This document shows, in pieces, positions 14,911 through 38,450 of a DNA stretch of 64,000 nucleotides (its first letter is position 1; every line of letters starts with the position of its first letter). The notes beneath the pieces are model-generated. The model was given only the letters and a program-made list of their open reading frames with translations, did not search any database and was not told where the DNA came from. The translations under genes and the position numbers were made by a program. Source of the stretch: Elusimicrobia bacterium RIFOXYA2_FULL_47_53 (GTDB taxonomy: Bacteria; Elusimicrobiota; Endomicrobiia; Endomicrobiales; XYA2-FULL-47-53). The DNA is taken from assembly GCA_001800315.1 (NCBI GenBank), contig MGVE01000013.1:1-64000 (forward strand), written 5' to 3'.

Positions 14911-16440
14911 TCAGTTCCCGTGACGCGTAAATATAAAATACATCCTCGCCACAGACCTGAAATAATCGCGCTCGTTTTTATTGAACCCAATAAAAAATGC
15001 CGTGATGACAAACACCGCTAACGCCGAAACCGCAAGTACCATGATCCTTGTGTAATCTGGGGTGACGAAGCGTCTTAAAACAATCCACAAGACCGTTATT
15101 ATTAACATTGACTTTATCATAACCGGCAAAAGCACATTCAAATAGTAATAACTCACTTTCAACCGGATCGCTTTACATGTATATATTGGCTGTATGAATA
15201 GTTTAACCGTTATCATGGGGATAGCAGTCCCTAAGGCAACCCCCAATATCCCGTAATATTTGACAAGCACTACGCTCGCAATAAGATTTAATATCCCCTC
15301 TATCGAATTAGAGACAGTGAAAAACTTATGCTTCGAAATACCGAACAGCATTTGTATGGATGGGACCTGCATCAGCGCGAATATCCTCGGTATCAGCAGT
15401 ACAAGAATGACCGAATACGACACAAGATATTCAGGCCCGGCCCAGCGTATTATGAATTCTCTTGAGAATATCGCCAGCAGCCCGCCTACCAGAAATGAAA
15501 GGTATCCGTTGATCTTAGTCATGAAGAGATACTTCTCTTTCAAAAGATCATACTGTTCGGCCGCGTGATACTGGCTGAATACCGGAGCCAGCATGCCGGT
15601 AGCAGCGGATATGAATTCCGAAAAATAAGCAATAAACCGCGCCCCTATAGAATAGGGCGTGACACTACTGAGTCCGATAAATACGGTAATAACAAGATTG
15701 TCTATATTGAAACGCAGCTGATCGGCGACTTGAGCCACAAAGGTATATACGCTGTAGCCGAAAAGCGTGCGAATCCTGCTCTTGTCAAAATATCTACTTG
15801 ACAGGACAATATGCTTATATAGCTTTCTAACGATGAAATACTTTACGGAGTACGCGTAGATGTCAAGGGTTGCCGTAATAACAGCAAGGGCAATCACTCC
15901 GTAACCATCAAGCAGGAATATGTATATCAGCAAGGTTCTTATCGCAAGCTTGCTCAGGTCCACCATACTGCTCAACTCAAAACGGATATTGGCAGCAAGG
16001 ATGCCCGCGAACACCCGAAGCGGAAACCCTATCGAGAAATTTATGCCCAAAATCAGGATCAGTTTCCTGAACAGGCTTACTTCTGTAATGTTAACAACCA
16101 GCAACGGCACAATAAAAGCAACTACAAACGACATGATCAGCGCGAATCCGCCGATAACGGTGAAGACGCCCAATGCCGTGTTGCATATCCTGTTCTCTTC
16201 TTCTATATCATTCGTTCCGACTGCCTTTGAAATGAAGCGTTGAACCGCGGAGTTGAGGCCGAAATCCATCAACCCGTAATAACCCAGAAATGAACCGACA
16301 AATATCCAAAGGCCGTACATGTGATCGCCGAGAGAATGTATGATAAACGGCATCATCACGATACCAATCACGGCGTTCGCGATAAACTCGGTGCTTCTTA
16401 AAAACGAACCGCTGATAAGACTTTTAGCTTTTTTTGACAT
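14911..16440 (-). CDS. Wzx-type oligosaccharide flippase
   Basis: 509 residues with 12 to 14 predicted membrane helices and the start KKAKSLISGSFLRSTEFIAN, followed by GLWIFVGSFLGYYGLMDFGL. This matches the polysaccharide transporter (PST/MVF) family. Wzx proteins move undecaprenyl-diphosphate-linked repeat units across the inner membrane. The Wzy-like gene is 47 bp upstream. With the initiating transferase at 35322-36764 and Wza/Wzc at 28607-31431, the locus has a full Wzx/Wzy-dependent set. Confidence 0.9.
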   Translation of the reverse strand: MSKKAKSLISGSFLRSTEFIANAVIGIVMMPFIIHSLGDHMYGLWIFVGSFLGYYGLMDFGLNSAVQRFISKAVGTNDIEEENRICNTALGVFTVIGGFALIMSFVVAFIVPLLVVNITEVSLFRKLILILGINFSIGFPLRVFAGILAANIRFELSSMVDLSKLAIRTLLIYIFLLDGYGVIALAVITATLDIYAYSVKYFIVRKLYKHIVLSSRYFDKSRIRTLFGYSVYTFVAQVADQLRFNIDNLVITVFIGLSSVTPYSIGARFIAYFSEFISAATGMLAPVFSQYHAAEQYDLLKEKYLFMTKINGYLSFLVGGLLAIFSREFIIRWAGPEYLVSYSVILVLLIPRIFALMQVPSIQMLFGISKHKFFTVSNSIEGILNLIASVVLVKYYGILGVALGTAIPMITVKLFIQPIYTCKAIRLKVSYYYLNVLLPVMIKSMLIITVLWIVLRRFVTPDYTRIMVLAVSALAVFVITAFFIGFNKNERDYFRSVARMYFIFTRHGN

Positions 16441-16487: not shown

Positions 16488-17684
16488 TCAACTAATATTT
16501 GCGTCTAACTCTGTCCATCCTGCCGGGTTTAACAGATTTTGCTTTACCGCTACAGCCAGCGCTATCAGCACATACAGGATATAGAATTGGTACCTGTTTG
16601 AAAAAAAGGCGCAGACGCAGAAACCGGCCAGCGAAGAGCAGATGAATTTATAGAGCATCGCGGCAATACTGTTATTACTTTTCCCTGATATATTCTTCAT
16701 TCTTATCAAATACACTAAAGGATAGGACACCAGAAGGAGAAAGAATACGCCGCCGAATATTCCCGATTCGGCAAATACCTGCAGCAGTGTGTTATGCGGC
16801 TGCATTCCAGGGATACCTCCGTATTGCCTCACATAGGTTGTGAACTCCCCTGGGCCGACTCCGAATACCGGATGATCCTTCAGCATACTTAATCCGACCT
16901 TCCATTGCTCAATGCGGTTTTCAGAAGAACTGTCGCCACTGAGGGCATTGAGATCGCTTCGGCTAAGGACATTCGTTATACCAACAGCAAACACCCCTGC
17001 CAGCAACCCGGCAAATAATATGGCCCTAAACAGTTTTGGCATGCGTTCAGAAAAATACAAACTTAACACCCCGACAGCAAGCAATCCCAGCAAACCGTTT
17101 CGCGAACCCGTAAACAAAATATTGAACGCGAACATCCCTGCCAAACCCAAATAAATAGTTTTTGAGACGAACGACCCGGCCGTATTAGCGAGAAGAAGCG
17201 CGAGCGGTATTACCGAAACCAGTATGATTGCGATATCGTTGGGGTTTGAATACCACCCGAATCCTCCCGCCCTGATGCCAGGCATGTAAACAACCACATA
17301 TTTGGATATGGAATAATACGACAAATATGCAACCGCAAACACTATAACAGCGGCAATGCTTCTTACCTTGTTTTCATCAACAACCGATTGAGTAATAAGA
17401 AAGTATACTATGCCCAGCCGCAGCCATAAGTTAAACGCCTCTATCCCACCCCCGAGCCAAAGCAAGGAAGCACTGAGTACCTGCATAACGACAAACAGAA
17501 GAAAATACCAATTCACTTTCTCCGCGAAAAACGGTTCCTTATTATGCTTTCTTGAAAATATATATCCCAAAAGCGCGAATATCGCGGAGTTTCTCAAAGG
17601 CTGATACTTTTCCAAAATCGGCCATACTTCCGCAGGCTGAAAAAACATTATGAATATGGTTAGACACAACAGAAAGAATGCCAC
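16488..17684 (-). CDS. O-antigen ligase / Wzy-like polymerase family membrane protein
   Basis: 398 residues with about 10 to 12 membrane helices. The family signature is the large periplasmic loop near residues 250-300, with FGVGPGEFTTYVRQYGG and the histidine of QPHNTLLQVFAESG. These Wzy_C-type proteins either polymerise undecaprenyl-linked repeat units or ligate chains to an acceptor. Next to a Wzx flippase and with Wza/Wzc in the locus, polymerase is the more likely role. Confidence 0.85.
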   Translation of the reverse strand: MAFFLLCLTIFIMFFQPAEVWPILEKYQPLRNSAIFALLGYIFSRKHNKEPFFAEKVNWYFLLFVVMQVLSASLLWLGGGIEAFNLWLRLGIVYFLITQSVVDENKVRSIAAVIVFAVAYLSYYSISKYVVVYMPGIRAGGFGWYSNPNDIAIILVSVIPLALLLANTAGSFVSKTIYLGLAGMFAFNILFTGSRNGLLGLLAVGVLSLYFSERMPKLFRAILFAGLLAGVFAVGITNVLSRSDLNALSGDSSSENRIEQWKVGLSMLKDHPVFGVGPGEFTTYVRQYGGIPGMQPHNTLLQVFAESGIFGGVFFLLLVSYPLVYLIRMKNISGKSNNSIAAMLYKFICSSLAGFCVCAFFSNRYQFYILYVLIALAVAVKQNLLNPAGWTELDANIS

Positions 17685-21074: not shown

Positions 21075-22070
21075 TCAGCGGGACGCAAGCTTCTTTTTTA
21101 CTATCGCCATCGCCTTTTTGTTCTCGAATTTGCCGAGTTTGCTTAGCCCCTCTTTCCTTGACATAATTCCAAGACGGACCATGCCGGCTATCTCAAAGGC
21201 ATATGGATGAAAACCATGGCGGTCCAGATGAACCTTGTTGGCAAAGGAATTGAGCAGACAGTTCGTGGAATTGGCGTCCATCTCGCCCGGCTCTCTCCAG
21301 CCAAGTTTTTTTATTTTAGAGATTATGCTTTTTTCATTATAATCCGTGAAAGCGAAAGGGCTGACGGTGTACGGAAAGGCTTCCGGGGAGTCAAAAACTG
21401 AATCTTCAATAAAATACCTTGAGAGATCGGAGCCGGAGGCCTCTTCAAGCTGTTTTCTAAAAATACTCTGGGTTGATTTAAACAGGGAGGCGTTAATTTT
21501 CATAAGCGAAGACCTGACAGGCGCCTGCCCCGGAGTCCAGCCCCAGACCATGAGCGGAATTTTCTTTTCCAGGGCGGTCTTTAAAAATATGAATTTTGCC
21601 AGCCCTATGCAGGAAGTGCATATAGTGCTCGCCCGCTCCAGGGCCTTTAGCGGGAATATGGGTTCTTTAAGGCTTCTTTTTATCACATTTCTCATTACGC
21701 CGAAATCAGCCTTAATTATCAGGCTGTCAACACCAAGAGCCTCCGTGACAGTCCTGATATTCCTGAATGCCTCTTCGGATATAAAACCATTGTCAAAAGT
21801 AAGCGCGAGCGGATTTAGCTTAAAGTGTGTCTTAGCCAGGTAAAGGGCGAAAGTGCTGTCTTTGCCGCCGGAATACGCCACAGTGCAGTCGTAGGAGTAC
21901 TTTCCCCTGATATTATCAAGCAGTTCCGTGAACTTGCCATATATTTCCTTTTTTTGGGCGGAGTAATCCTCAACCGCTTTTGAATCGGAGCAGTAGTTAC
22001 ACACGCCGTATTTATCAAAACTAATACCCGGGAAAGTTTCCGGCAGAACGCACCTTGAACATATTTTCAT
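21075..22070 (-). CDS. PP-loop ATPase, N-acetyl sugar amidotransferase-like
   Basis: 331 residues. N-terminal cysteines C4, C7, C24 and C27 (CSRC and CNYC) form a probable zinc site. The ATP-pyrophosphatase loop is AYSGGKDSTFAL (SGGKDS at 67-72). A second CTSC follows near residue 150. This layout matches the WbpG/PseA group of N-acetyl sugar amidotransferases and related adenine-nucleotide alpha hydrolases, which adenylate a sugar carboxylate or carbonyl before amidation. These enzymes need an ammonia source; no HisH/HisF-like partners are next to it, but two AsnB-type glutaminases lie in the locus. Flanked by repeat blocks on both sides. Confidence 0.7.
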   Translation of the reverse strand: MKICSRCVLPETFPGISFDKYGVCNYCSDSKAVEDYSAQKKEIYGKFTELLDNIRGKYSYDCTVAYSGGKDSTFALYLAKTHFKLNPLALTFDNGFISEEAFRNIRTVTEALGVDSLIIKADFGVMRNVIKRSLKEPIFPLKALERASTICTSCIGLAKFIFLKTALEKKIPLMVWGWTPGQAPVRSSLMKINASLFKSTQSIFRKQLEEASGSDLSRYFIEDSVFDSPEAFPYTVSPFAFTDYNEKSIISKIKKLGWREPGEMDANSTNCLLNSFANKVHLDRHGFHPYAFEIAGMVRLGIMSRKEGLSKLGKFENKKAMAIVKKKLASR

Positions 22071-24487: not shown

Positions 24488-26473
24488 TCAATTGACTGTC
24501 GTTATGCGGCCCTGAAATTTATCAAGCTTTTCTCGGAGCAAAGGCTCAAAACCGCTGATAAAATGCTTCTCCGTAAGAAGCGTCGTTATTATGGCCGTTA
24601 CAGCCATATGATTTTTGTTGCTGACAAGCCCCGGCGCCGAGTTCCTGCATTTCGCCATCAGGCCTGCCACCGCGGAGGGATTAAATATCCCGGTGTTTTT
24701 TAAATTTGATTCAGACAACAACTCTTCCACATACTCCAGCTTTCCGGCGTTTAGAAAACTCTGGCTTTCCGGAGCCCTGTAGGCCTGTTTTTTTCTGGCG
24801 ATGATATCCGCCGGCAGATAAGCCGCGGCCGCCTTTTTTAATAAATATTTTTCGCGCAGGCCCCGGATCTTGCAGCGGGGAGGCAGTGAAAGCGCGTAGC
24901 GCACAACTCTGTAATCCAGAAAAGGATATCTACCTTCAACCGAGTGAGCCATCGCGACCCGGTCGCCCTGCGAAGACAGCAGGTTGCCGGAAAGCAGGGT
25001 GAAAATTTCTATGTACTGGGCTTTCAACAGGCTGTCCCAGGACGAGAACCCGTCCGGCAGAAGGCTTTCAATTGTTTCATAGACGCTCTCGGAGGAAACG
25101 GCGCCTTTAAGATCGTCCGCGAAAAATGATTTTATGTAGGAAGTCGTATCCCATCTTGGAATATGCGAATACCAGTTTTTATCGGCGCCCGAAAGATGAG
25201 TCCTGTAAAATGCCTCAATAAACGCCGGCGCCGTTGAGGCCCCTCCGGAAATACCGGCATGAAGAATATTAAGCAGGGCGGGCCTGCATTTTGAATCCGG
25301 CTGGCGCGCCCAGAACCTGCGTATCTTCATTTCCTTAAAAAGATCGTAACCGCCCAGCATCTCGTCGGCGCCCTCGCCCGTCAGCACCACCTTGATGCCG
25401 GATTCGCGCACAAGGCGGGAAAGCATGAACATCGGCGCCGGCGCCGTCCTGACAAGGGGCTTTTCGGTATGCCAGATGACATCGGGCATGGCTTTGCCGA
25501 TATCGGCGTAAGAACAGTCTATCCGGCTGTGAGCGCTGCCGATAAAATCTGAAACTGTTTTCTGATGGGCGCTTTCGTCGTAATATTTATCGCGAAAGGC
25601 AACGGAATATGTCTGTATGCCGGGATTATATTTCTGTTTTACCAGAGACGAAATAAATGATGAATCAAGACCGCCGCTTAAGTAGGAAGCCACCGGCACA
25701 TCGGCCCGGAGGCGTATCCTGGCGGCATCGTCCAGAAGCGCCATCAGCTCTTCGGCGTAATCATCATCCTTCTTTTCCGGAGAGTGGCTCAGCCCGCCCG
25801 GCTCCACATCCCAGTAGCGGTTTATTTCCATCCTGCCACCGCTGACTGTCATAAAATGTGCCGGAGGAAGCTCAAAAACATTCTTAAAAACCGTTTTAGG
25901 AGGCAGGGGCGTCCAGAAGGTAAAGAGCTGGCCGAGGCCCCCGTAATCAAGCTCGCGCTTTATTTTTCCGGAAGAAAACAACGCCTTTATTTCCGACGCG
26001 AACAGCAGAGATCCCGCTGAAACTGAGTAGTAAAGCGGCCGTATGCCCGTCCTGTCGCGCGCCATCAGGAATTTGTTCTTTTTCTTATCCCAGATAACAA
26101 ACGCGAACTGGCCGTTTAGCTCTTCTAAAAGAGCCTCGCCTTTTTCTTCGTAGAGGTGGACTATAACTTCCGTGTCGGTTTTGGTGTAAAAACGGTGGCC
26201 CTGGCGGGCCAGGCGCTCGCGGAGTTCCGGATAGTTGAAAATTTCCCCGTTGTAGGTTATCCAGACGGACTTGTTTTCGTTATGAAGGGGTTGAAGTCCC
26301 CCTTCAAGATCTATTATGCTGAGCCGGCAGTGCCCGAGAGAAGCATTTTGCGAGGTGTGGATGCCCGCTTCGTCCGGGCCCCTGTGCGACAGGGACATGA
26401 CCATATTCCCGGTGACTGTTGCGTCGGGGGTAAGGCCCGCCATAAGGCTTATCTGTCCGCAAATTCCGCACAT
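24488..26473 (-). CDS. AsnB-type amidotransferase, exosortase-associated
   Basis: 661 residues. MCGICG gives the glutaminase nucleophile Cys2, with SHRGPDEAG and YNGEIFN following. The synthetase half has SGGLDSS at 266-272 and TGEGADEMLGGYD. It is about 40 residues longer than the AsnB at 9674-11539 and clearly diverged from it. Placed between the acyl carrier protein (13 bp upstream) and the acyl-CoA ligase (9 bp downstream), it most resembles the amidotransferases that accompany exosortase systems rather than housekeeping asparagine synthase. The acceptor is unknown. Confidence 0.82.
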   Translation of the reverse strand: MCGICGQISLMAGLTPDATVTGNMVMSLSHRGPDEAGIHTSQNASLGHCRLSIIDLEGGLQPLHNENKSVWITYNGEIFNYPELRERLARQGHRFYTKTDTEVIVHLYEEKGEALLEELNGQFAFVIWDKKKNKFLMARDRTGIRPLYYSVSAGSLLFASEIKALFSSGKIKRELDYGGLGQLFTFWTPLPPKTVFKNVFELPPAHFMTVSGGRMEINRYWDVEPGGLSHSPEKKDDDYAEELMALLDDAARIRLRADVPVASYLSGGLDSSFISSLVKQKYNPGIQTYSVAFRDKYYDESAHQKTVSDFIGSAHSRIDCSYADIGKAMPDVIWHTEKPLVRTAPAPMFMLSRLVRESGIKVVLTGEGADEMLGGYDLFKEMKIRRFWARQPDSKCRPALLNILHAGISGGASTAPAFIEAFYRTHLSGADKNWYSHIPRWDTTSYIKSFFADDLKGAVSSESVYETIESLLPDGFSSWDSLLKAQYIEIFTLLSGNLLSSQGDRVAMAHSVEGRYPFLDYRVVRYALSLPPRCKIRGLREKYLLKKAAAAYLPADIIARKKQAYRAPESQSFLNAGKLEYVEELLSESNLKNTGIFNPSAVAGLMAKCRNSAPGLVSNKNHMAVTAIITTLLTEKHFISGFEPLLREKLDKFQGRITTVN

Positions 26474-27116: not shown

Positions 27117-28076
27117 CTAATCGGCTCCGAGCTTTATAGTCAATGATAATTTGTGAAGGCCGCTGAGGGTGTCCCGGGGAATATACGCGTAGTCTAAATT
27201 CATTTCGTAAGCGTAGAAGAAGAAGACATCAACATTCTTAAGAATCAGGCCGGCCCCGTACGACAGCCCCGAATAATCCCCTCCGAGCGAATTATATCCG
27301 GCTCTTAGCGCGAATATTCTTCTTTCGCCCGGGAAATATTCCGCGCCGATGCCGTAGCCGCCCTGTGACTTGCTGTTGGTAGTATAATCGGCTCCGACAA
27401 CCAGGCTGTCTTTTAACAGCACAGAGGCGAGGCCCGCGTTTAAAGTCCTGGGCAAATCGTAACTTCCGTCTTTATACGAGAAATAGTCGGCATAATTTAA
27501 AAGTGAAATGCCGGCGGAAAGCTTGTGCCAGGGATGTCTGATAAGAATACCTGAATCAAAAGAAAAATTATCACCCGAAGAACTTCTGAACTCTTCGGAG
27601 ACGCTTTTAGCCGAAAGGCCCACGAAAACGCTGCCCAAAACGCTGTCCGAGAAAACCGGCTTAGCGTAAGTGAGCTGGGTTATCCTGTCCACGGGATGCG
27701 AAGGCGCGGCTCCCGCGGCTGACTGAAGGCCCCAGTCCAGGGCAGACATTGATACAGCCACCGCTCCGAGGTCATAGACATTGCCAACCCGGACATCCTC
27801 AAAATCATAAGCATAGGCCGCGTGCTGAAACGAGGCTCCCTCGTAAGGCCTGAAACTGGAAAATGAAAATTCATCTCTCGTGATAACGGACAGGCCCGCG
27901 GGATTTGAAAAAATAGAATCAATCCCTTCCGACATGGCGGCGCAGCGCGTTCCCATTGAGGCTATTCTGGCGCTCGGCAATACTTCAAGGGCGCGCGCCG
28001 AGGGCGTTTCTGAAAAAACCGGACGCGCGGAAGCCAAGAGAACCGCCGCTAAAAACAAACTATATATTCTTTTCAT
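27117..28076 (-). CDS. PorV/PorQ-family outer-membrane protein
   Basis: 319 residues with a signal peptide (1-22, ends PVFSE). MGTRCAAMSEGIDSIFSNPA is the family's N-terminal signature, followed by repeated amphipathic strands rich in Tyr, Gly and Ser. It is a paralogue of the protein at 535-1548. It is the first gene of a run with vanZ, acyl carrier protein, amidotransferase and ligase, starting only 2 bp upstream of vanZ. Probably an outer-membrane barrel; function inferred only. Confidence 0.75.
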   Translation of the reverse strand: MKRIYSLFLAAVLLASARPVFSETPSARALEVLPSARIASMGTRCAAMSEGIDSIFSNPAGLSVITRDEFSFSSFRPYEGASFQHAAYAYDFEDVRVGNVYDLGAVAVSMSALDWGLQSAAGAAPSHPVDRITQLTYAKPVFSDSVLGSVFVGLSAKSVSEEFRSSSGDNFSFDSGILIRHPWHKLSAGISLLNYADYFSYKDGSYDLPRTLNAGLASVLLKDSLVVGADYTTNSKSQGGYGIGAEYFPGERRIFALRAGYNSLGGDYSGLSYGAGLILKNVDVFFFYAYEMNLDYAYIPRDTLSGLHKLSLTIKLGAD

Positions 28077-28606: not shown

Positions 28607-30730
28607 TTAACTGTAGTAATAATCGTGCATATAACGAGGCATATAGTGATCCTGCCTCGTCATAACAAACCCGAGAACCTTAGCCCCGACCTGCCTGAGC
28701 GACGACTTGATATTGATTACATCTTTCTGGTGAGTTTTCCCGGATTCAATTGCCACAACGACCGCGTCGGAAAACTTTGAAAGCATCATGGCGTCCGGCA
28801 TATTAAGCACAGGCGGAGAATCCATCACAATTATCTCAAACTGGGACGAAAGTGAATTTATCAGTTCTTTAAAAGAAGGCGAACCCATCAACTCCGTAGG
28901 ATTTCCCTTGGCCGCGCCGCACGGCAGGAACCAGAGGTTATTTACGGGAGTCTGCCTGCACGCTTTCTGCGGATCTATGGAATTGAGCAGTATGTCCGAT
29001 ACCCCGGGATTAACGGGCGCGGAGAAAAAAGCGTGCAGAAGGCCCTTTCTCAGGTCGCAGTCCACAAGCAGAACCTTGGAGCCGCCAGCCGCTATGGCCG
29101 CGGCCAGGTTGGCCGAGGTCGTGCTTTTGCCCTCGCCGTGAATGGCGCTTGTAATGAGAAGTTTTTTTATTTTTCCGGAATCGTTGAGCCCGTGGAAAAT
29201 ATTTGTCTTTAACATCCTGTAGTCATCGGCTATACGGGAACGGGGATCGTGGTAAACCACCAGCTCGGCGGCCACCGAGGGATCCAGGCGCTTAAGCGCG
29301 ATGTGCGGCACGGCGATCCTTATTTTTGAGAAAAGTTTATTATTTCGCAGGAAATCCCTGACGGCGGCCCGGAACTCCTTTTTATCCTTATTCTGAGTTT
29401 CCATGGCTATAGTTCCGACACTGCCCAGGCCCGTAAATCCGAGAACCGCCTGCGCCTGCTCGGGGGTATGGAATGTCTTAAAAATATTCTCCAGCAGGAA
29501 AACGCCTCCGCCGCCAAGCATCAGCCCTCCGAAGAAACCAAACAGCAGTATTTTCATGAAGTTGGGTTTAACCGGCTTTAACGGCAGCCTCGCGTACTCA
29601 AGCACCGTGAATTGGTTTCCCTTTTCGGAATCCTGAAGCCGCTCGGAAACATAGGCCGACTCCAGCTGTCTTAAAAGCATCTGGTAGATATCCTCGTCAA
29701 CCCTCTTATTCCTCTCCAGATTTGCCAGGCCTTCCTCGCCCAATTTCTTAGCGCCCCTGACACTCCGGGTCAAAAGGGATTCCCTTCTTTTCTCAAGATA
29801 GCTTATTTCCATATCCATCTGCTTTAGCTCCTGCTCGGTCTGCAGATACATGGGATTAAAAGTTGATATGCTTTCTTTTACAGTTGTTTTCTCCAGCTCA
29901 CTGCTTATCCTTGCCTTAAGCCCGGTTAACTCCGTCTGCAACTCCTGAACTTTCGGGTTCCCCTCCTTGGCGTCTATCAAAAGGCGGGCAAGCTCGGACT
30001 CAATCTGACCGGCCCTCGCCTGAAGCTGAGAAACAACCGGATTCTGTTCAGTCGTAACCTGAGAGGGTATTATCTTCTGAAGATTGGCCAGGCGGTCCTT
30101 GAGCAGTGTCCTGCGGTTTTGCGCCACCCTCAGGTCGGAATCTATTTTACTGACCGTAAAATTCTGTTCGGAGTTTTCCAGCTTAGCCCGGTAAATCTTC
30201 AGCTGTTCGTTTATGAAATCAATGGCGTTTTTAGCCTCTTCCCGCTTCCCCTGAGAGCTTTCCTCAATGAAGTTCTGGGTAAGCGTGTTGGCGACCATCT
30301 GCGCGCGCCTTGGATTTCCGTCCTGATAAACGACCTGTATGATCTCCCTGTTAACAAAGCGGACATTCACGCGCTTCCTCAAATTCGTTATGTAATCTTC
30401 CATCTGTTTCTGGGAGGCGTCAACGCTCACAAGGTTGAGCTGCAGGACAAGCTGTTCAAGCTTGGGCCAGGCCATAATCTGTTTGGAGAGCGTGTTTATT
30501 TCTTCCGCTATCTGGGGAGCTACGGCTATTTCGCTTACCAGCGGGTCAATTATTTTTTTGCCGCGCACCTTAATAAGAGATGAAGCTTCGTAAACTCTCG
30601 GCATGAACAGCCCGGCCAGAACCGAGGAAAAAAATACCACGGAAAAAAGAACAAGAAAAACATTCCTTTTCCTGATTAACAGCTCCAGCATATCGGACAG
30701 ATTAAGTTGCTGCTGAGTTTCTTTTGTCAT
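28607..30730 (-). CDS. Wzc-like polysaccharide co-polymerase and tyrosine autokinase
   Basis: 707 residues. A Wzz chain-length domain with a first membrane helix (about 32-50), a long coiled coil (about 150-400), a second helix near 420-440, then a cytoplasmic BY-kinase. Kinase motifs are Walker A GEGKST (532-537), Walker A' LLVDCDLRKG (554-563) and Walker B IIVMDSPP (633-640). The tail carries a tyrosine cluster (Tyr696, 700, 704-706) for autophosphorylation. Such proteins control chain length and gate export through Wza; phosphorylation cycling regulates this. The upstream wza-like gene is 5 bp away. Confidence 0.92.
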   Translation of the reverse strand: MTKETQQQLNLSDMLELLIRKRNVFLVLFSVVFFSSVLAGLFMPRVYEASSLIKVRGKKIIDPLVSEIAVAPQIAEEINTLSKQIMAWPKLEQLVLQLNLVSVDASQKQMEDYITNLRKRVNVRFVNREIIQVVYQDGNPRRAQMVANTLTQNFIEESSQGKREEAKNAIDFINEQLKIYRAKLENSEQNFTVSKIDSDLRVAQNRRTLLKDRLANLQKIIPSQVTTEQNPVVSQLQARAGQIESELARLLIDAKEGNPKVQELQTELTGLKARISSELEKTTVKESISTFNPMYLQTEQELKQMDMEISYLEKRRESLLTRSVRGAKKLGEEGLANLERNKRVDEDIYQMLLRQLESAYVSERLQDSEKGNQFTVLEYARLPLKPVKPNFMKILLFGFFGGLMLGGGGVFLLENIFKTFHTPEQAQAVLGFTGLGSVGTIAMETQNKDKKEFRAAVRDFLRNNKLFSKIRIAVPHIALKRLDPSVAAELVVYHDPRSRIADDYRMLKTNIFHGLNDSGKIKKLLITSAIHGEGKSTTSANLAAAIAAGGSKVLLVDCDLRKGLLHAFFSAPVNPGVSDILLNSIDPQKACRQTPVNNLWFLPCGAAKGNPTELMGSPSFKELINSLSSQFEIIVMDSPPVLNMPDAMMLSKFSDAVVVAIESGKTHQKDVINIKSSLRQVGAKVLGFVMTRQDHYMPRYMHDYYYS

Positions 30731-30735
30731 AAATT

Positions 30736-31431
30736 TCAGGGGATAGGCATTACCGCGGCTCTCGCGGCCGGTACTGTATTAGAAATCGGGCTTAAAAGCG
30801 TGGAAATCAGATCAGAAATCATGCCCAGGAAATTTTTTGGCACATAAACGATATCTCCGGGTTGAAGCTTCGCGTTGTTTTCAAGCTCGCCCCTGTAGAG
30901 TATCCTGTAAAGATTGACGACCTTCGTTGAAGGCCTCTGAGGGCGCGGAGAAATAATATAAACCCTCCTGTCGGCCGCGAACCTGCCCGGCAAACCGGCG
31001 AGAATTACGGCGTCCCGAAGCGTGATGTTCTTTCCTTCGGTTGAATACCTGCCAGGCCTTGAGACCTCGCCCATAACATATATCACCTGGCTGGCGTACC
31101 TTACTATATCAATCGTCACTTTCGGGTCTTTGACATATTTCTCAAGCACCGAGGCAATGGCGACCTCGGCCCCGTCTTTAAGCAGGCCCTCAAGCTTAAT
31201 CTCGCCTATGCTCTGTATGAATATTTTACCGTCAGGCCTTATGGTAAACTCTCCGCTCCACTCGGGATGCTGCTCCGCGATAATCCGTATAATATCATCG
31301 GGGCCCAGCATGTACCCCGAGGACGGCGAGGCCGCAGGGACAACCGGCGCGGCGCCGCCTGCTTTAAAGGAGGCGCAGGAAGCAAGGGCGGCTGAAGCGA
31401 TAATAACAAGAATCATCTTGATTGAATTCAT
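30736..31431 (-). CDS. Wza-like polysaccharide export lipoprotein
   Basis: 231 residues from the internal ATG at 31431. I prefer this start over a longer frame reaching 31521: it has gagagag just upstream and begins a clean lipoprotein signal with lipobox LASC (Cys19), while the longer form would overlap epsI and lack a signal. The Poly_export domain reads YMLGPDDIIRII and FTIRPDGKIFIQSIGEI, and a SLBB-type repeat follows (YVMGEVSRPGRYSTEG). It should form the outer-membrane channel that works with the Wzc-like protein encoded next. Confidence 0.88.
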   Translation of the reverse strand: MNSIKMILVIIASAALASCASFKAGGAAPVVPAASPSSGYMLGPDDIIRIIAEQHPEWSGEFTIRPDGKIFIQSIGEIKLEGLLKDGAEVAIASVLEKYVKDPKVTIDIVRYASQVIYVMGEVSRPGRYSTEGKNITLRDAVILAGLPGRFAADRRVYIISPRPQRPSTKVVNLYRILYRGELENNAKLQPGDIVYVPKNFLGMISDLISTLLSPISNTVPAARAAVMPIP

Positions 31432-31438
31432 AACTCTC

Positions 31439-32074
31439 TCATTCGGAATATTGAGTAAGCACGGGCAAAAGCGCCTTAATAAAGTCCTCGCTGGCGCTTC
31501 TCGCGCTTTCCTTATCGTCAAATTTTATCTCGGTATAAACATTCACCGCCATACCTCTGGAGAACCCCTTGAACATCCTGTCCGTTACAATTCGCGTCTG
31601 CTGGAGATAAAAATTGCTGTAGTAGTCGCGGCCCGCCGCGTAAAAATTATGGACAAGTATGTCGTTGCCGTGGTCCGTTGAGAAAACCATCTCATTGACT
31701 TCCACAAGCCCGCCTTTAATTTCCGGAATGGCAATTGAAACGGCGCCCCGGCCGGCAAGCTCTGAGCCGGCGCCCGTCATGCAATACTCGGGCGGATGAA
31801 AAGCCGACCTGTTGTTGACTGCCTTGACGATTATAAGCTCCACGGTTCTGCCGGCTTTGTCCCGGTATATCCTGCCGATGACGGCATCGGTACCGAGAAT
31901 ATCAATGACTCTTTCCTGGAACTTGATATCTTCCGCCAGCTGCCAGGAACCTATTTTAGCGGGAAGCGTCTTAATATCAACCGAGCTGACCCGCGACCTG
32001 CCGCCGTATAAAACAAACAGCGACAACCCTGCGAAAAAAATAAAAATTAATAAAAGAACAATGCTTTTTTTCAA
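31439..32074 (-). CDS. epsI: EpsI-family exosortase-associated protein
   Basis: 211 residues with an N-terminal membrane helix (4-23) and a periplasmic domain. It carries the hallmark of the EpsI/DUF3485 family, FHPPEYCMTGAG (His93, Glu96, Cys98). EpsI proteins are encoded beside or fused to exosortases and are thought to help in exopolysaccharide or target-protein processing; the chemistry is unknown. It overlaps the exosortase gene by 4 bp. Confidence 0.9.
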   Translation of the reverse strand: MKKSIVLLLIFIFFAGLSLFVLYGGRSRVSSVDIKTLPAKIGSWQLAEDIKFQERVIDILGTDAVIGRIYRDKAGRTVELIIVKAVNNRSAFHPPEYCMTGAGSELAGRGAVSIAIPEIKGGLVEVNEMVFSTDHGNDILVHNFYAAGRDYYSNFYLQQTRIVTDRMFKGFSRGMAVNVYTEIKFDDKESARSASEDFIKALLPVLTQYSE

Positions 32075-32928
32075 GCGCCGCGTCCCTGCTGTTTAAATAT
32101 ATTATAAACCATCATAAACAAACCGAACGCGATTACCCAAAGGACTATACCTGCGCCGTCGTGAAGAATGCCGCCGGTAGCGGCCTCGGTTCCGTAAATA
32201 TAGGCCGCGATGATAAGAAAAACTATCCGGGCCGTATTCGCCAGAACCGCGATCGGCAGGGAAAACGCAACTACCGCCGACTTCCTTAACATACTGCCTT
32301 TCAGGAAATACGCGAATACCACGCTTAAGGTAAACAGCGATATGAGCGAGTTTATGCCGCTGCACTCATTTTCAACCGTCAACATACCGTTGGGAAGGTA
32401 AATCACGCTCCCTTCGCGCAGTATATTCAGGTTCATCAACCCCACGACCCAGACCGCGGCCTGCGAGGCCAGTAGCTTAAGGTTAAAGGTCAGCCATATA
32501 AGCATGACCTTCGGAACCGGCACCATGAAAATGAGAAAAGACAACGGAAAAAGCAGGGCTCTGGTAATCTGCCGTCCGAACAGGTACAAAGACGCGCCTA
32601 TCAGCGCGAAAATCAGCGCGAAACCGGAGAAAAACTTTATCCCCAGCACAAGCCCGACAAGCACATGCCCGGCGAGCGCCGCTATCAAAAGAGCTATCCC
32701 GAAATACGATGTTTCCTGCCGCATATTTTTGAGGCGCGGCAAACTTGAATATATAATATACGCCGAGAAAAACGGTATCAAAAAACCGTGCGAGTAATAA
32801 GAATCCGGCTCAACAAACCTGGCATACATCCACTGAAAAGTGTCAAAAAATGTCGCCGCGACCGCCGCGGGAAGCAGAAAAAAGGGTATGAATCCGCCGT
32901 AACTTTTCTTAATTACCGCCTGGGACAT
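32071..32928 (-). CDS. xrt: Exosortase
   Basis: 285 residues, about eight membrane helices. The proposed catalytic residues are all present: Cys189 in ENECSGINSL, Arg234 in ANTARIV and His256 in GILHDGAG. Exosortases recognise C-terminal PEP-CTERM signals (PEP motif, membrane helix, basic tail) and cleave or transfer the substrate at the outer face of the inner membrane. Candidate substrates lie at 35322-36764, 36818-37432 and 37586-38257. It is not assigned to a subtype; the acyl ligase, amidotransferase and acyl carrier neighbours are reminiscent of XrtA clusters. It overlaps epsI by 4 bp and the TPR gene by 1 bp. Confidence 0.93.
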   Translation of the reverse strand: MSQAVIKKSYGGFIPFFLLPAAVAATFFDTFQWMYARFVEPDSYYSHGFLIPFFSAYIIYSSLPRLKNMRQETSYFGIALLIAALAGHVLVGLVLGIKFFSGFALIFALIGASLYLFGRQITRALLFPLSFLIFMVPVPKVMLIWLTFNLKLLASQAAVWVVGLMNLNILREGSVIYLPNGMLTVENECSGINSLISLFTLSVVFAYFLKGSMLRKSAVVAFSLPIAVLANTARIVFLIIAAYIYGTEAATGGILHDGAGIVLWVIAFGLFMMVYNIFKQQGRGA

Positions 32929-34346
32929 TATTTCCTTTTTTCAAGCGCCCTTATTCTGCCGACGGCAGACAACGAGAGGCTGCCCGCGGGATATTGCTTA
33001 ACGAACTCTTTGTATGTTTCAGCGGCAAGCGCTTTATTTTTCAGGTTGTTCTCGTAAATCATGGCGATTTTAAACAATGCGAACTCGGACTTTTTGTCCG
33101 CGGGGAACTTGCTCCTGATGGCCTTCAGTGTTTCCACGGCCGCCGCGTATTCTTCCTTCATTATGTATGTCGCGGCCAAGAGCTCAAAAGCTTCCAGCGA
33201 AACAAGGTCAGCGCTTTTATCGTCTGTAAGCGACTTGTAGTATTTAACGGCTTCCTCAAACGAACGGTTGGCGCCGGCCTTATCGTTCTTTTTAACATAG
33301 TGGCCGGCGATTATCAGAGGCACCTGCATGGCGACCGGCTTGTCCGGAAATTCGGAGCGCAGTTTATCGTATTCAGGCAGGGCTTCCTGCCACCTGCCGG
33401 CTTTATCATAACTAACAGCCACGGCAAATTGAGCCGCGGCGCGCAGGGAACCGTCTTTTGGAAAAAGCTTGTTGACTTTGTCTCTCTCGGCGGCCGCGCC
33501 GGCATAGTCGCCCTTAAGCGCGTAAATATTGCCGATAGCCAGCTGGGCCTCGCCGGCGTATTTTGACTTTCCGTATTCCTTAACCGTTCTTGAAAAAATT
33601 TCAAGAGCCCTGGCGTTATTTTTCAGAGCTTCGGAATATATTTTAGCCGCCTCCAGCAGGGACTGAGGAGCGGCGAAAGCCTTGGGATATTTAGCGGCAA
33701 AGGAGAGAAGATATTCGGCGGTCTGGGAAGCCCGCCCCAGTTTACTGCCGGTTATGACCATAAGCGGGTGCACGGCGGACACTATTTTGCTGTAGGGATT
33801 CGTTTCAACTATGCTTTTATAGCCAGCGAAAGCATTTTCGTAGGCTTCCTTAGACTTGTCTTTCATGCCTGAGCGGGAATACAAGTCCGCCACATACACC
33901 GGCATCTGAAGGCCGAACTCGGAAGTAGGGTAACGGTCCATGATTTTTTCGTACTCAGCCACAGCCTCTTTTATTTTCCCGGCGTTCTCCTTAAGCTGTC
34001 CGAGAGCGTACCAGGCGCGAACCGTAACATCATGCCTGTCCGGGTAGTCTACAATTACTTTTTCAAACTCACCGGCGGCCGCGGAGACTCTTCCCCTGGC
34101 TGAGTTCAATTCACCAAGCATGAGCTGAAGGTCGGCGGCATTGCTCCAGGCGGGATATTTATCAATTACACCTTTTAAATCTTTTAGGGCGCCGTCAAAA
34201 TCCTTCTCGGCGGCCCGGACAGGAGACCGCAGTGTCTGGCTGTGCAGCCTGGTAACATTATAAAGCATTCTCTCGGCGTCATAATCACCGCCGCAGGATG
34301 AAAGAAATAATACGGCTGTTAATAACAGAAGATGCGTTTTCCTCAT
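32928..34346 (-). CDS. TPR-repeat lipoprotein
   Basis: 472 residues. Signal peptide with lipobox LSSC (Cys18), then about ten tetratricopeptide-like repeats of 34-40 residues with the pattern A-x-x-E-Y/F-x-x-I-x-x-x-YP (for example AEYEKIMDRYPTSEFG and ETLKAIRSKFPADKKSEFAL), resembling BamD/YbgF-type proteins. Outer-membrane TPR lipoproteins are frequent in exosortase clusters (PrsT-like), probably as scaffolds. It overlaps the exosortase start by 1 bp and the membrane protein gene by 4 bp. Confidence 0.8.
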   Translation of the reverse strand: MRKTHLLLLTAVLFLSSCGGDYDAERMLYNVTRLHSQTLRSPVRAAEKDFDGALKDLKGVIDKYPAWSNAADLQLMLGELNSARGRVSAAAGEFEKVIVDYPDRHDVTVRAWYALGQLKENAGKIKEAVAEYEKIMDRYPTSEFGLQMPVYVADLYSRSGMKDKSKEAYENAFAGYKSIVETNPYSKIVSAVHPLMVITGSKLGRASQTAEYLLSFAAKYPKAFAAPQSLLEAAKIYSEALKNNARALEIFSRTVKEYGKSKYAGEAQLAIGNIYALKGDYAGAAAERDKVNKLFPKDGSLRAAAQFAVAVSYDKAGRWQEALPEYDKLRSEFPDKPVAMQVPLIIAGHYVKKNDKAGANRSFEEAVKYYKSLTDDKSADLVSLEAFELLAATYIMKEEYAAAVETLKAIRSKFPADKKSEFALFKIAMIYENNLKNKALAAETYKEFVKQYPAGSLSLSAVGRIRALEKRK

Positions 34347-35179
34347 AACCTGCCCTCTATTTCCTTGTTTTTCATAAAGAATACAGTTACTGAAACCGTG
34401 TAAAAAATATCTGCTAATAAAATAAAAAATATTTTAGCCGCGACAAACAGGATGGATATCTCAGGAAACGATTTTTCCATCATGCCGCGCATGTTAACAA
34501 ACAAAAACGGCAGAACAATCAGATTGGGTCCCAGAACAACTAACAGAAGCTTTACGGGATAATTCTTAAACAGCGCGACCGCGCGTTTAAAAGACTGGGG
34601 GAGCTTCCTGTTTTCAACTATTACGGCGGGGATTCCGAAAGCGAACAGGGCCTGAATAAGAACCCCGAACAAAAACATAAGAAGCACGACGGCCTTTACG
34701 GAAGTGGTCACATACTCAAGCAGAAGGTATGAAGTCCTGGAAAAAGCGTAGATGAGCACAAATACGGCAACCCACAGGCCGAGCATACGGAAATATCTTT
34801 TAACAGATTTGCCGAACCCGAAAAACCAGCTTGGCTCGCCCGACTGGAACAGCTGGGCCGTCATGGAAATAGTTATGCCGGACATTATCAGGCCGAAAGT
34901 GAAATCTATGGCATTTTTTGAATAATTAAACAGCGTCGGGAACAGAATCAGGTTAAACGGATAGTGCAGGAAACGATCGCCCCAGAAAGCTTTTACTATA
35001 GGAGAAAACACCGTGGAAAGAGGATACCGCGGGGAAAGATAGACTACACACATGCCGGCGATATAAAACAAAGCGGTAAACAAAAATGGCGCCGCTATAA
35101 CCGGCTTTTTTTTAAGCAACTCATATGATTCTTTCCAAACGGAGAGAACGCTAAGTTTATTGCCCGAATTGCCACTCAT
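34343..35179 (-). CDS. Polytopic membrane protein of unknown function
   Basis: 278 residues with about six hydrophobic helices (near 28-52, 85-115, 130-165, 160-190, 205-235 and 250-270). The opening SVWKESYELLKKKPVIAAPF and the later RKLPQSFKRAVALFKNYP resemble the duplicated repeats of DUF4013-like or glycerophosphoryl diester phosphodiesterase membrane-domain proteins. I do not recognise a function. It heads the run membrane protein, TPR lipoprotein, exosortase, epsI, wza, wzc, each joined by overlap or short gap. Confidence 0.65.
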   Translation of the reverse strand: MSGNSGNKLSVLSVWKESYELLKKKPVIAAPFLFTALFYIAGMCVVYLSPRYPLSTVFSPIVKAFWGDRFLHYPFNLILFPTLFNYSKNAIDFTFGLIMSGITISMTAQLFQSGEPSWFFGFGKSVKRYFRMLGLWVAVFVLIYAFSRTSYLLLEYVTTSVKAVVLLMFLFGVLIQALFAFGIPAVIVENRKLPQSFKRAVALFKNYPVKLLLVVLGPNLIVLPFLFVNMRGMMEKSFPEISILFVAAKIFFILLADIFYTVSVTVFFMKNKEIEGRL

Positions 35180-35321: not shown

Positions 35322-36764
35322 CTATCTTGCGCCCTTGGAAAGAATGACCGTGCCGATAGTCTTGAAAAGTATCTGTATATCCATCAGCAGGCCCCTTTTC
35401 CTGGCGTAAAGCAGGTCATACCTCAGTTTTTTTCTGGTTCCCTCTACGGTATCGGTGTAGCCGTTCATAACCTGGGCAAGGCCCGTTATTCCGGGTTTTA
35501 CATAAAAACGCGTGTTGTAATTCTCTATATCGTTGTCAAGTTGTTTTACAAAAACCGGCCTCTCGGGCCTGGGGCCTATTATGCTCATATCGCCCTTGAG
35601 CACATTAATAAGCTGGGGCAGTTCGTCAATTCTCGTCATTCTGAGAAATTTACCAATGTGCGTTATCCTTGAATCGTTTTTCGCGGCCCAAACCGGGCCG
35701 GTGCCTTTTTCAGCGCCCATGGTCATGGTGCGCAGTTTGTATATTGTGAAAGGTTTACCGAGAACATCGTCGCTGCGCATTTCGCCCTGAGCGGGATTGC
35801 CGCGCGGAGCCCTGGATCTTCTTCTATTTTCGCCTACCCGTTCCTGTTTATAAAACGCCGGGCCCGTGGAGTCTAATTTAACAAGTATGGCCGCGACCGC
35901 GACTATGGGAGCCGCGAGCACTATTCCGATGGAAGCAAGAAGAATATCTAAAAACTTTCTGAACTCGCTGTACCTGCTTCTCGCGAATGATGCCAGCGAT
36001 CCCGCCAGGCCGAGCATTATCAGAACCATCGTGGAAGGTTCCGGAACCGGAGTGGGATTGATATCGGCCCTCAGCGTCAGGTAATCGTTGCCGCAGCTCA
36101 TTGTCCAGTGCAGTTTGATATCCCTGCTGGTATGCCTGTTAAAACCAAACGCGGAGAGCGGAACGCTTGCCTCAAGCACATAGTGGCTGTTGATAGCCTC
36201 GCTGAAAGCAAAGTCAACGGGAGCATCCACTGCGCAACCGGAGAGTATATTGTAGGGAGTGGAAGAATACAACCCGTTCTGCCACACGCAGTTCTTCTTT
36301 AGAACCGCGCTCTCCGAGCCGAGCACCTCAATGCCGTATTCGTAAATATTGTCGCCGTCAGTATTGATGGCTATGTCGCCGGGCCATATATATGACGGAG
36401 AGAAACCCTGCGGCGAGGCGGCGCCGTTTACCGGAAGGCCCTGCACAACGGCCATGTAGAGGTTCTCGCCGTCATTATCAAAATAAAAAGCCTCGGCATC
36501 GCACATATTGCCAAAACTGTACTGGGGGCCGACAAACCAGGCTCCGTGGCTGTAGGCCGGATTTCTGGTGTTATCCGCGTTGTCTTCAGTAATGTAATCT
36601 ATGTCCGAGCCGCCCGCGGGTGTGTCGGAATCCAGGGCGAACCTGGACCCGGCCTGCAGAAGATTTACGCCCCAATCGTCCACCAGCCCATCAATAATGT
36701 AGGAATGGGCCGCGGAAGGAAGCAATAAAGCGCAGCATAAGATTAACTTAATGTTTAAACGCAT
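35322..36764 (-). CDS. Fusion of a PEP-CTERM exoprotein with a membrane sugar transferase
   Basis: 480 residues. The chosen ATG at 36764 has GGAG just upstream and opens a normal signal peptide (MRLNIKLILCCALLLPSAAHS); a longer frame to 36800 lacks both. Residues 21-238 form a secreted domain (IDGLVDDWG, INTDGDNIYEYGIEVLGS). A complete PEP-CTERM signal follows: VPEPST at 240-245, helix 246-260, basic RSR. It runs straight into a bacterial sugar transferase (267-480) with its membrane helix, LVKLDSTGPAFYKQERVG, YKLRTM, RIDELPQLINVLKGDMS and IIGPRPERP. That domain normally moves a sugar phosphate from UDP-sugar to undecaprenyl phosphate. Topology agrees: exoprotein outside, catalytic domain inside. 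An extra segment at 313-335 interrupts the family pattern. It is the only initiating transferase in the window. Confidence 0.88.
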   Translation of the reverse strand: MRLNIKLILCCALLLPSAAHSYIIDGLVDDWGVNLLQAGSRFALDSDTPAGGSDIDYITEDNADNTRNPAYSHGAWFVGPQYSFGNMCDAEAFYFDNDGENLYMAVVQGLPVNGAASPQGFSPSYIWPGDIAINTDGDNIYEYGIEVLGSESAVLKKNCVWQNGLYSSTPYNILSGCAVDAPVDFAFSEAINSHYVLEASVPLSAFGFNRHTSRDIKLHWTMSCGNDYLTLRADINPTPVPEPSTMVLIMLGLAGSLASFARSRYSEFRKFLDILLASIGIVLAAPIVAVAAILVKLDSTGPAFYKQERVGENRRRSRAPRGNPAQGEMRSDDVLGKPFTIYKLRTMTMGAEKGTGPVWAAKNDSRITHIGKFLRMTRIDELPQLINVLKGDMSIIGPRPERPVFVKQLDNDIENYNTRFYVKPGITGLAQVMNGYTDTVEGTRKKLRYDLLYARKRGLLMDIQILFKTIGTVILSKGAR

Positions 36765-36817: not shown

Positions 36818-37432
36818 TTACAACAGCAGCTTCTTCCTTGAAGCCACAAGGCCTAATAAACCTGTTCCAAGCAACATTAATGTCGCCGGTTCAGGAACAG
36901 CTGTTGCGGTAGTCACCTTAAATGTAACCCCACTATTGCGATAATGGCAATCAGGATCAACACCAAACCCAAAATCATCATTAGTGGCAATGTAATTCTG
37001 AAGGTCATCAATCAATCCGAGAGAACTGAATGAATAGACCAAGTCAAAATTACGCGCTACTCCGCCAAGAGGGTCACTCCATGTGCCGACAAGGACACCT
37101 TGTCCGGCAAACATATCATTAGTGTCTCCGTCCCAAACCCCATCTGTCCCGCTAAGCGTACCTAACACTGCTGAGTCAAGCAAATGAGTGTAGAGCATGT
37201 CCCCATCTTCAACAGCCCAGTCATAAATATTCTTATAAGTAAGAACCGCTTCCTCAATGTACTCAGTGGGAGCAAGGTTAAGCTTAAGACCCCATGTGTA
37301 GAAATAAGAATGATTCAAATCCCCTAAATCATACGGGGTTGGCTGATAAGTATAAATAGCCGACTGAGATACTCCTGTGAGCACGGCCATGACAGCCGAG
37401 ATTAACAACACTTTTACTAACGCTTTTTTCAT
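36818..37432 (-). CDS. PEP-CTERM protein
   Basis: 204 residues with a signal peptide (1-24, ending GVSQSA). The body is Asp/Tyr-rich without a recognised domain. The C-terminal signal is VPEPATLMLLGTGLLGLVAS with basic RKK (179-200), the standard substrate tag for an exosortase such as that at 32071-32928. A very strong ribosome-binding site (aaaggaggtg) precedes the ATG, suggesting high expression. Probably released from its helix and linked to the surface or the polysaccharide. Confidence 0.9.
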   Translation of the reverse strand: MKKALVKVLLISAVMAVLTGVSQSAIYTYQPTPYDLGDLNHSYFYTWGLKLNLAPTEYIEEAVLTYKNIYDWAVEDGDMLYTHLLDSAVLGTLSGTDGVWDGDTNDMFAGQGVLVGTWSDPLGGVARNFDLVYSFSSLGLIDDLQNYIATNDDFGFGVDPDCHYRNSGVTFKVTTATAVPEPATLMLLGTGLLGLVASRKKLLL

Positions 37433-37585: not shown

Positions 37586-38257
37586 TTATTTCTTTATTTT
37601 TAGTGCCGCGATGCCGAACAATCCGGTTCCAAGAAGGAACAGGGTTGCCGGTTCAGGGATAGGCCTGGGAAAACCGCCGGCGCTGCTGGTCTTGGGCGAG
37701 AAATCGTCTTTCCAGTCAATCATTCCATTTTTGTTTGTATCGGCAAGAGCGAAGAAATGGTCTCCCTCGGTCATGATGCCGGTGTATGAAATAGGAGCCG
37801 TGAACATATAATAGGTTTTATTGTCCAAGTCGTTTGTGGTCTGCCAGAGGGACTGGGTTTTAGGAAGCAGAGTATTGTAATAAATGCAAGAGGGATTGTT
37901 GTATCCATCTATCTGATGATCCACATTCTGGGTAAGCGCAAGCTGCTGGTTGTTAAAGTAGAGAGGAAAATTGTCGCCGCCCGTGTTTGAAATAAAGTAT
38001 ATGTCGTTCAGCCATGGCACATAAGAAGTGAATACGGTAAGGTTTGAGCCGGAAGGCCCGATAACAAAACCATGGTAATCGGGGTTCGCGGCGGGAACTA
38101 TGGTATCGGCGAAATACTGTATATAAGTCCAGTTGACGGCATCCGCGTCAGCATACGCGTAAGTACCCGCGGCTACACCCAGCGAAGGAGTAGCGTTTAC
38201 CGGAACCGTCAAAAATAATGCCGCTGCCGCAACCAAAAACAAAAAGATTCTCTTCAT
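37586..38257 (-). CDS. PEP-CTERM protein
   Basis: 223 residues from the ATG at 38257, which has ggggaa just upstream and begins a signal peptide (MKRIFLFLVAAAALF); the longer frame to 38302 adds 15 residues that spoil it. The body contains FALADTNKNGMIDWKDDF, an EF-hand-like loop that may bind calcium. The tail IPEPATLFLLGTGLFGIAA plus KIKK (199-223) is an exosortase signal. It lies 153 bp upstream of the other PEP-CTERM gene. Confidence 0.88.
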   Translation of the reverse strand: MKRIFLFLVAAAALFLTVPVNATPSLGVAAGTYAYADADAVNWTYIQYFADTIVPAANPDYHGFVIGPSGSNLTVFTSYVPWLNDIYFISNTGGDNFPLYFNNQQLALTQNVDHQIDGYNNPSCIYYNTLLPKTQSLWQTTNDLDNKTYYMFTAPISYTGIMTEGDHFFALADTNKNGMIDWKDDFSPKTSSAGGFPRPIPEPATLFLLGTGLFGIAALKIKK

Positions 38258-38450
38258 TAAACTTCCCCTTTTAGACACATATTCCACAAGATGACAACCC
38301 ATGATTTACAGCGGACACAGCAAAAACAAAAAACGAACAGACTCCCCCGAAAGGAAAGGGCCGCTTAAAGCTGCGGCCAAATGTTACTTAATTAATCCAA
38401 ATTTGTCAACGCCCTGCCAGACTGCGTACAATTTGATAAATAATATTACA

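Follow-up and report, generated by a model that had tools for sequence, protein, structure and literature searches.

Proteins of the PEP-CTERM/exosortase (EpsH, Xrt) system carry a signal peptide and a sorting tag made of a P-E-P motif, a hydrophobic helix and basic residues, and the genes for the exosortase, EpsI and polysaccharide synthesis are clustered (PMC1569441). In the survey by Haft et al. (2006), 87% of the tags lay at most 10 residues from the C-terminus, tags with long tails were regarded as possibly non-functional, and PF02397 genes were observed in PEP-CTERM clusters (PMC1569441). The monotopic phosphoglycosyl transferases (PGTs) Campylobacter PglC (8e37/8g1n) and WbaP (8t53) have a catalytic core with an Asp-Glu dyad and a re-entrant helix. 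PglC carries no signal peptide or sorting tag, and WbaP has a four-helix bundle and a cytoplasmic domain instead. In bifunctional monoPGTs (Bi-PGT), as described in PMC10942596, functional domains are carried on the core. Archaeosortase ArtA is a sortase-type enzyme with both genetic and functional ties to lipid-making enzymes: its substrate processing needs the colocalised PssA and PssD, and in Methanosarcina the artA and pssA genes are neighbours (PMC7157517).

The window, a stretch of 64,000 nucleotides from Elusimicrobia bacterium RIFOXYA2_FULL_47_53, has the hallmarks of a PEP-CTERM/exosortase locus, except that one tag is internal and is followed by a 216-residue enzyme predicted to be cytoplasmic. 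A preliminary description had recognized here a single frame encoding a signal peptide, a secreted domain, a PEP-CTERM tag and a complete sugar transferase. Open reading frame analysis, Pfam and NCBIfam bore this out at the same coordinates, and the gene was on the minus strand. A GGAG precedes the start codon, and the 480 codons are free of stops. Proteins with this layout (signal peptide, periplasmic segment, PEP-CTERM tag, monotopic PGT) are named PEP-PGTs here. The parts of the window gene are:

35322..36764 (-), complete fused gene, 480 aa, with ATG at 36764 and stop at 35322-35324
36702..36764 (-), putative signal peptide read from the sequence, about residues 1-21, ending in LLLPSAAHS and followed by YIIDG
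36060..36701 (-), secreted domain, about residues 22-235, predicted to fold as a CBM9/DOMON-like beta-sandwich; its homologues in Omnitrophota include stand-alone PEP-CTERM exoproteins encoded close to the PGT
35976..36050 (-), internal PEP-CTERM tag, residues 239-263, with VPEPST, hydrophobic helix and RSR
35325..35972 (-), monotopic PGT domain, residues 265-480, with re-entrant helix containing Pro286, Asp380-Glu381 and GPRPER

The tag matched Pfam PF07589 (PEP-CTERM) over residues 239-259 with 26.2 bits (cut-off 20.7) and NCBIfam TIGR02595 (PEP_CTERM) with 19.5 (cut-off 16). As in other PEP-CTERM proteins, a hydrophobic segment and an AHS/Y site at the N-terminus point to a signal peptide, and the genome encodes an exosortase, at window positions 32071-32928. 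Unlike in them, the tag is not at the extreme C-terminus, 217 residues coming after it.

Pfam PF02397 (Bac_transf) matched the enzyme over about residues 266-474 (201 bits, cut-off 27, positions 2-178). An insert of ~20 residues after GENRR splits this match in two; the homologues from L004, an Elusimicrobia metagenome-assembled genome (MAG), and G001, from the window's own family, share the insert. The core, with the catalytic Asp380-Glu381 and GPRPER, aligned with PglC and WbaP, and D380, E381, P400 and P286 were invariant columns across 31 relatives. The predicted activity of the enzyme is transfer of a sugar-1-phosphate to undecaprenyl phosphate. In the AlphaFold model, a confident tag helix (243-263) runs straight into the PGT membrane helix (265-298), which is predicted to be re-entrant at the helix-breaking Pro286; with Foldseek, the PGT model matched PglC at 3.7e-11. 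The topology proposed earlier, with the tag helix running from outside to inside and the PGT on the cytoplasmic side, is sensible. The usual PGT of XrtA/PEP-CTERM clusters is EpsB_2 (TIGR03013). The window protein shares its enzyme family and genomic setting, but scored 243.3 against a cut-off of 393.35 and has no counterpart of the N-terminal half of EpsB_2.

The scanned neighbours, from 4 to 38 kb of the window, were all on the same strand as the fusion, which forms an operon with the exosortase and EpsI genes:

37586..38302 (-), second ordinary PEP-CTERM exoprotein, upstream
36818..37432 (-), ordinary PEP-CTERM exoprotein just upstream, ending in VPEPATLMLLGTGLLGLVASRKKLLL
34343..35179 (-), conserved multi-pass membrane protein that matched neither Pfam nor NCBIfam, homologues in 37/58 PEP-PGT loci
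32928..34346 (-), TPR lipoprotein, homologues in 36/58 PEP-PGT loci
32071..32928 (-), exosortase (TIGR02602, 158.8 bits, cut-off 105.55), with no second one found in the genome
31439..32074 (-), EpsI, exosortase-associated protein (TIGR02914, 63.8 bits, cut-off 42.8)
30736-31521 (-), polysaccharide export protein
28607-30730 (-), chain-length determinant/tyrosine autokinase
16488-17684 (-), Wzy/O-antigen-ligase-type gene of the same polysaccharide cluster
14911-16440 (-), flippase-type gene of the same polysaccharide cluster

Glycosyltransferases, the flippase and the Wzy-type gene lie beyond the chain-length/tyrosine kinase gene, on the downstream side. Two asparagine-synthase-like genes (9674-11539 and 24488-26473) and a WbuX-like N-acetyl sugar amidotransferase (21075-22070), all (-), suggest amidated sugars in the window polysaccharide. 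PorP/SprF-like and PorV-family outer-membrane proteins, families familiar from type IX secretion, are encoded at 535-1548 (-) and 27117-28076 (-), flanking or inside the exosortase/polysaccharide cluster. Homologues of the membrane protein at 34343-35179 (e.g., L206:6275-7150 and L221:7380-8210) stand beside the PEP-PGT even in the exosortase-less G001, and this family is a candidate PGT partner. The fusion had been described as the only initiating transferase seen in the window, and hence as no spare copy. This holds within the window, where it is the sole PF02397 protein, but not genome-wide, a second PF02397 PGT being encoded at G000:C1:31729-32292, within a 467-residue frame.

The window genome is a draft of 20 contigs, and two genes wrongly joined in sequencing or assembly could in principle give such a frame. 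Full-length fusions of the same architecture were, however, intact in two other genomes, G1125 (L275, 497 aa) and G1122 (L276, 503 aa), the L004 fusion was interrupted only at an "nn" assembly gap, and the tag-PGT unit was conserved in >50 other genomes. The independent intact copies refute a join, to which we assign a negligible probability, and the fusion is real.

A first scan gave two full-length relatives, L004 and L005 (Omnitrophica MAG). The L005 protein consists of signal peptide, short linker, HAPEPST, helix and PGT, and lacks an exoprotein domain. A profile spanning the tag to the end of the PGT, built after L005, was run on Omnitrophota genomes, and the count of fusions rests on the N-termini of strong matches and of most intermediate ones. 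Signal peptide, short linker, PEP-CTERM tag and PGT were found together in 53/384 sampled Omnitrophota genomes, a count that includes L199, whose frame starts at the tag. Among 340 genomes of the window's own phylum, only the window genome and G001 had the layout; the best untagged matches there (L087-L089) were small PGTs without signal peptide or tag and were set aside. All 5/5 genomes of the class holding L004 had it. Altogether, some 60 other genomes have the same tagged enzyme, and an exosortase gene nearly always adjoins it. No PEP-PGT fusion was seen in samples of 194 genomes from the G725 phylum (Verrucomicrobia) and 198 from the G728 phylum (Desulfobacteraceae). Among the matches listed for these two phyla, only one, in a 588-residue frame of G1043, started close to the tag (at profile position 10), and the best ones read had no tag. 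Within these listed matches, the idea that the fusion is common to all exosortase bearers was rejected.

The tagged proteins grouped together when a quick tree was built from the PGT domain (4 label changes, against 36 for shuffled labels), and they may have a single origin. Around the window the order of branching is uncertain, many deep forks having SH-aLRT <95.

The tag could be a mere membrane anchor and a relic of the fusion between an exoprotein gene and a small-PGT gene, with its helix now spanning the membrane unrecognised by the exosortase; sister PGTs do have other transmembrane segments, without PEP. Yet an anchor needs hydrophobicity and would not by itself require P-E-P, and in the 55 PEP-PGTs compared Glu was present in 55/55, the first Pro in 54/55 and the second Pro in 51/55. 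The spacing from the tag to K-R-x-x-D, at the opening of the PGT, was 28-29 residues (five counts of "21" came from an earlier R-K pair caught by the pattern), while the linker ahead of the tag varied freely. All four Pro codons and both Glu codons were common in the tags, which argues for selection on the protein, not recent descent. The tag of the PGT was similar to the exoprotein tags of the same loci. By this pattern of conservation, the tag is under purifying selection in the relatives.

The occurrence of the exosortase also bears on the anchor reading. An exosortase was found in 51/53 of the Omnitrophota fusion genomes, in all cases on the same contig with a median gap of 1235 bp, and in 74/331 Omnitrophota genomes without the fusion (Fisher p 2.5e-26, an optimistic value, as related genomes were treated as independent). 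In the two fusion genomes without exosortase, the fusion was on contigs <4 kb. Where read, the gene between exosortase and PGT in the relatives was EpsI, and homologues of exosortase and EpsI were present in 50/58 PEP-PGT loci, many of which are incomplete. This near-universal adjacency speaks against an anchor or relic, and so does G001: no exosortase was detectable in this genome, which is 91% complete, and in its PGT the tag is replaced by PPPEAASP, signal peptide, helix and enzyme being kept. G001 is a single case, and the absence of its exosortase could be an assembly gap.

Other cases fit an anchor better. In a subclade of eight genomes inside the PEP-PGT tree (L183, L185, L191, L222, L223, L234, L235 and L249), PEP has been lost from the PGT, mostly replaced by xPYG or similar, and signal peptide and helix are kept. 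Most of these genomes have an exosortase gene, and the neighbouring exoproteins retain PEP, so that the tag, and any coupling through it, is not essential everywhere. In the L004 class, tags were intact but no exosortase was found in 3/5 genomes. These three are fragmentary and at least two of them carry other PEP-CTERM proteins; the exosortase gene may therefore be missing from the assemblies. Weighing both sides, we consider it rather unlikely that the tag is only an anchor or relic.

On the tree, PEP has been lost in G001, in the eight-member subclade and in L232 (G698:C7), a paralogue that lacks the tag but retains signal peptide and helix, in a genome that also has a tagged PGT. Related small tagless PGTs, several without an N-terminal membrane segment, were found in exosortase-bearing genomes too, some adjoining the exosortase gene. 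A weak exosortase match in G340 was rejected, the frame reading as a phosphate-permease-like membrane protein.

The exoprotein part is modular. Homologues of the window ectodomain were found as stand-alone PEP-CTERM exoproteins near the PGT in ten Omnitrophota genomes, directly downstream of it in L220, L209, L199 and L005; those with E ~1e-40 had 45-51% identity to the window domain. The window, L004, G1125 and G1122 have this domain joined to the front of the tag-PGT unit. In G1124 (L286:7864-9243) the unit carries an exoprotein of another, unrelated kind, similar to the cistern PEP-CTERM family (41 bits, below the family cut-off of 60), and G1123 has an ectodomain stub in one copy and none in the other. 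Most relatives have no folded periplasmic domain, only a short variable peptide of some tens of residues. Since the exoprotein is usually absent, split off or swapped, comparison of the sequences points to tag plus PGT as the constant unit and to the exoprotein as exchangeable cargo. The preliminary description had centred on the release of the exoprotein by a cut at the tag. As a general point this is not supported: with mostly a short peptide ahead of the tag, exoprotein release cannot be what the arrangement originally or mainly serves.

Because the full-length AlphaFold model was poor for the ectodomain (pLDDT <50), this domain was modelled separately. VIA-align gave Z of 8.1-8.9 to CBM74, CBM9 and ethylbenzene dehydrogenase gamma, only a little higher than unrelated immunoglobulin rows at 7.3; there was no Foldseek match under 1e-3 and no Pfam family. 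A CBM9/DOMON-like fold has modest support from modelling. With such a fold, the periplasmic part might be a sensor that binds glycan and regulates the PGT through the helix, shedding by the exosortase being optional; there is precedent for PGT regulation by partner proteins (PMC12802240). Against a sensor, most relatives have no folded domain to sense with, one carries an unrelated domain, and the separate exoproteins of the same family, each with a tag of its own, stand free of any PGT. We regard a sensor as improbable.

The explanation we favour, with a probability of roughly 0.6, is that the exosortase recognises the tag of the PEP-PGT, which places the enzyme making the sugar-lipid beside the enzyme cutting exoproteins, and that the window gene is a lineage-specific elaboration. 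The tag helix would cross the membrane from outside to inside, leaving the monotopic PGT on the cytoplasmic side, where it would make the first undecaprenyl-PP-sugar. The exosortase from the neighbouring gene would recognise the tag and hold or process the PGT, and the PGT would thereby be brought alongside the enzyme by which PEP-CTERM exoproteins are cut and probably transferred. A cut would separate the periplasmic part from helix plus PGT; in the window lineage, one cut would also free a whole exoprotein at the site of chain synthesis. Recognition of the tag, already put forward in the preliminary description, is likely, given the purifying selection on the tag in the relatives and the single exosortase gene 2.4 kb off. 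As the piece cut off would be small in most members, placing or controlling the PGT at the exosortase is more likely their purpose than the release of cargo. These observations suggest a physical link between the making of sugar chains and the sorting of surface proteins.

By analogy, ArtA with PssA and PssD offers a precedent for coupling between a sortase and lipid enzymes (PMC7157517). That link consists of gene neighbourhood and colocalisation, whereas in the PEP-PGT the enzyme of the lipid-linked sugar itself carries the sortase tag, as its sequence reveals. A further and tentative idea is that the exosortase holds the PGT as a tagged substrate whose product, undecaprenyl-PP-sugar or its chain, would be the acceptor for PEP-CTERM exoproteins, which would then be ligated to the glycan or its lipid. 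If so, the PEP-PGT would be the missing link to what exosortases attach their substrates to.

Like Bi-PGTs, PEP-PGTs have a second part fused to the PGT core. Compared with the Bi-PGTs described in PMC10942596, the difference lies in the addition, which in PEP-PGTs is constantly a membrane-crossing, periplasm-facing sorting tag; the window's extra domain is fused to the core too, but is missing from most relatives. In the literature searched we found no description of a fusion between tag and sugar transferase, and prior mention is possible in key subscription papers and domain databases, which lay outside the search. The same literature held no paper joining PEP-CTERM with Omnitrophota or Elusimicrobia. 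What may be new here is the way in which two familiar elements, the tag and the enzyme, are combined, which alters the possible purpose of the tag.

Internal PEP-CTERM tags, set aside until now as probably non-functional, can be conserved, and searches confined to the C-terminus therefore miss a class of them. How exosortases act on their substrates, and why they are found in polysaccharide clusters, has been a standing question since 2006. A tag within the very enzyme that initiates the chain would give a direct physical handle on the link between exosortase and polysaccharide.
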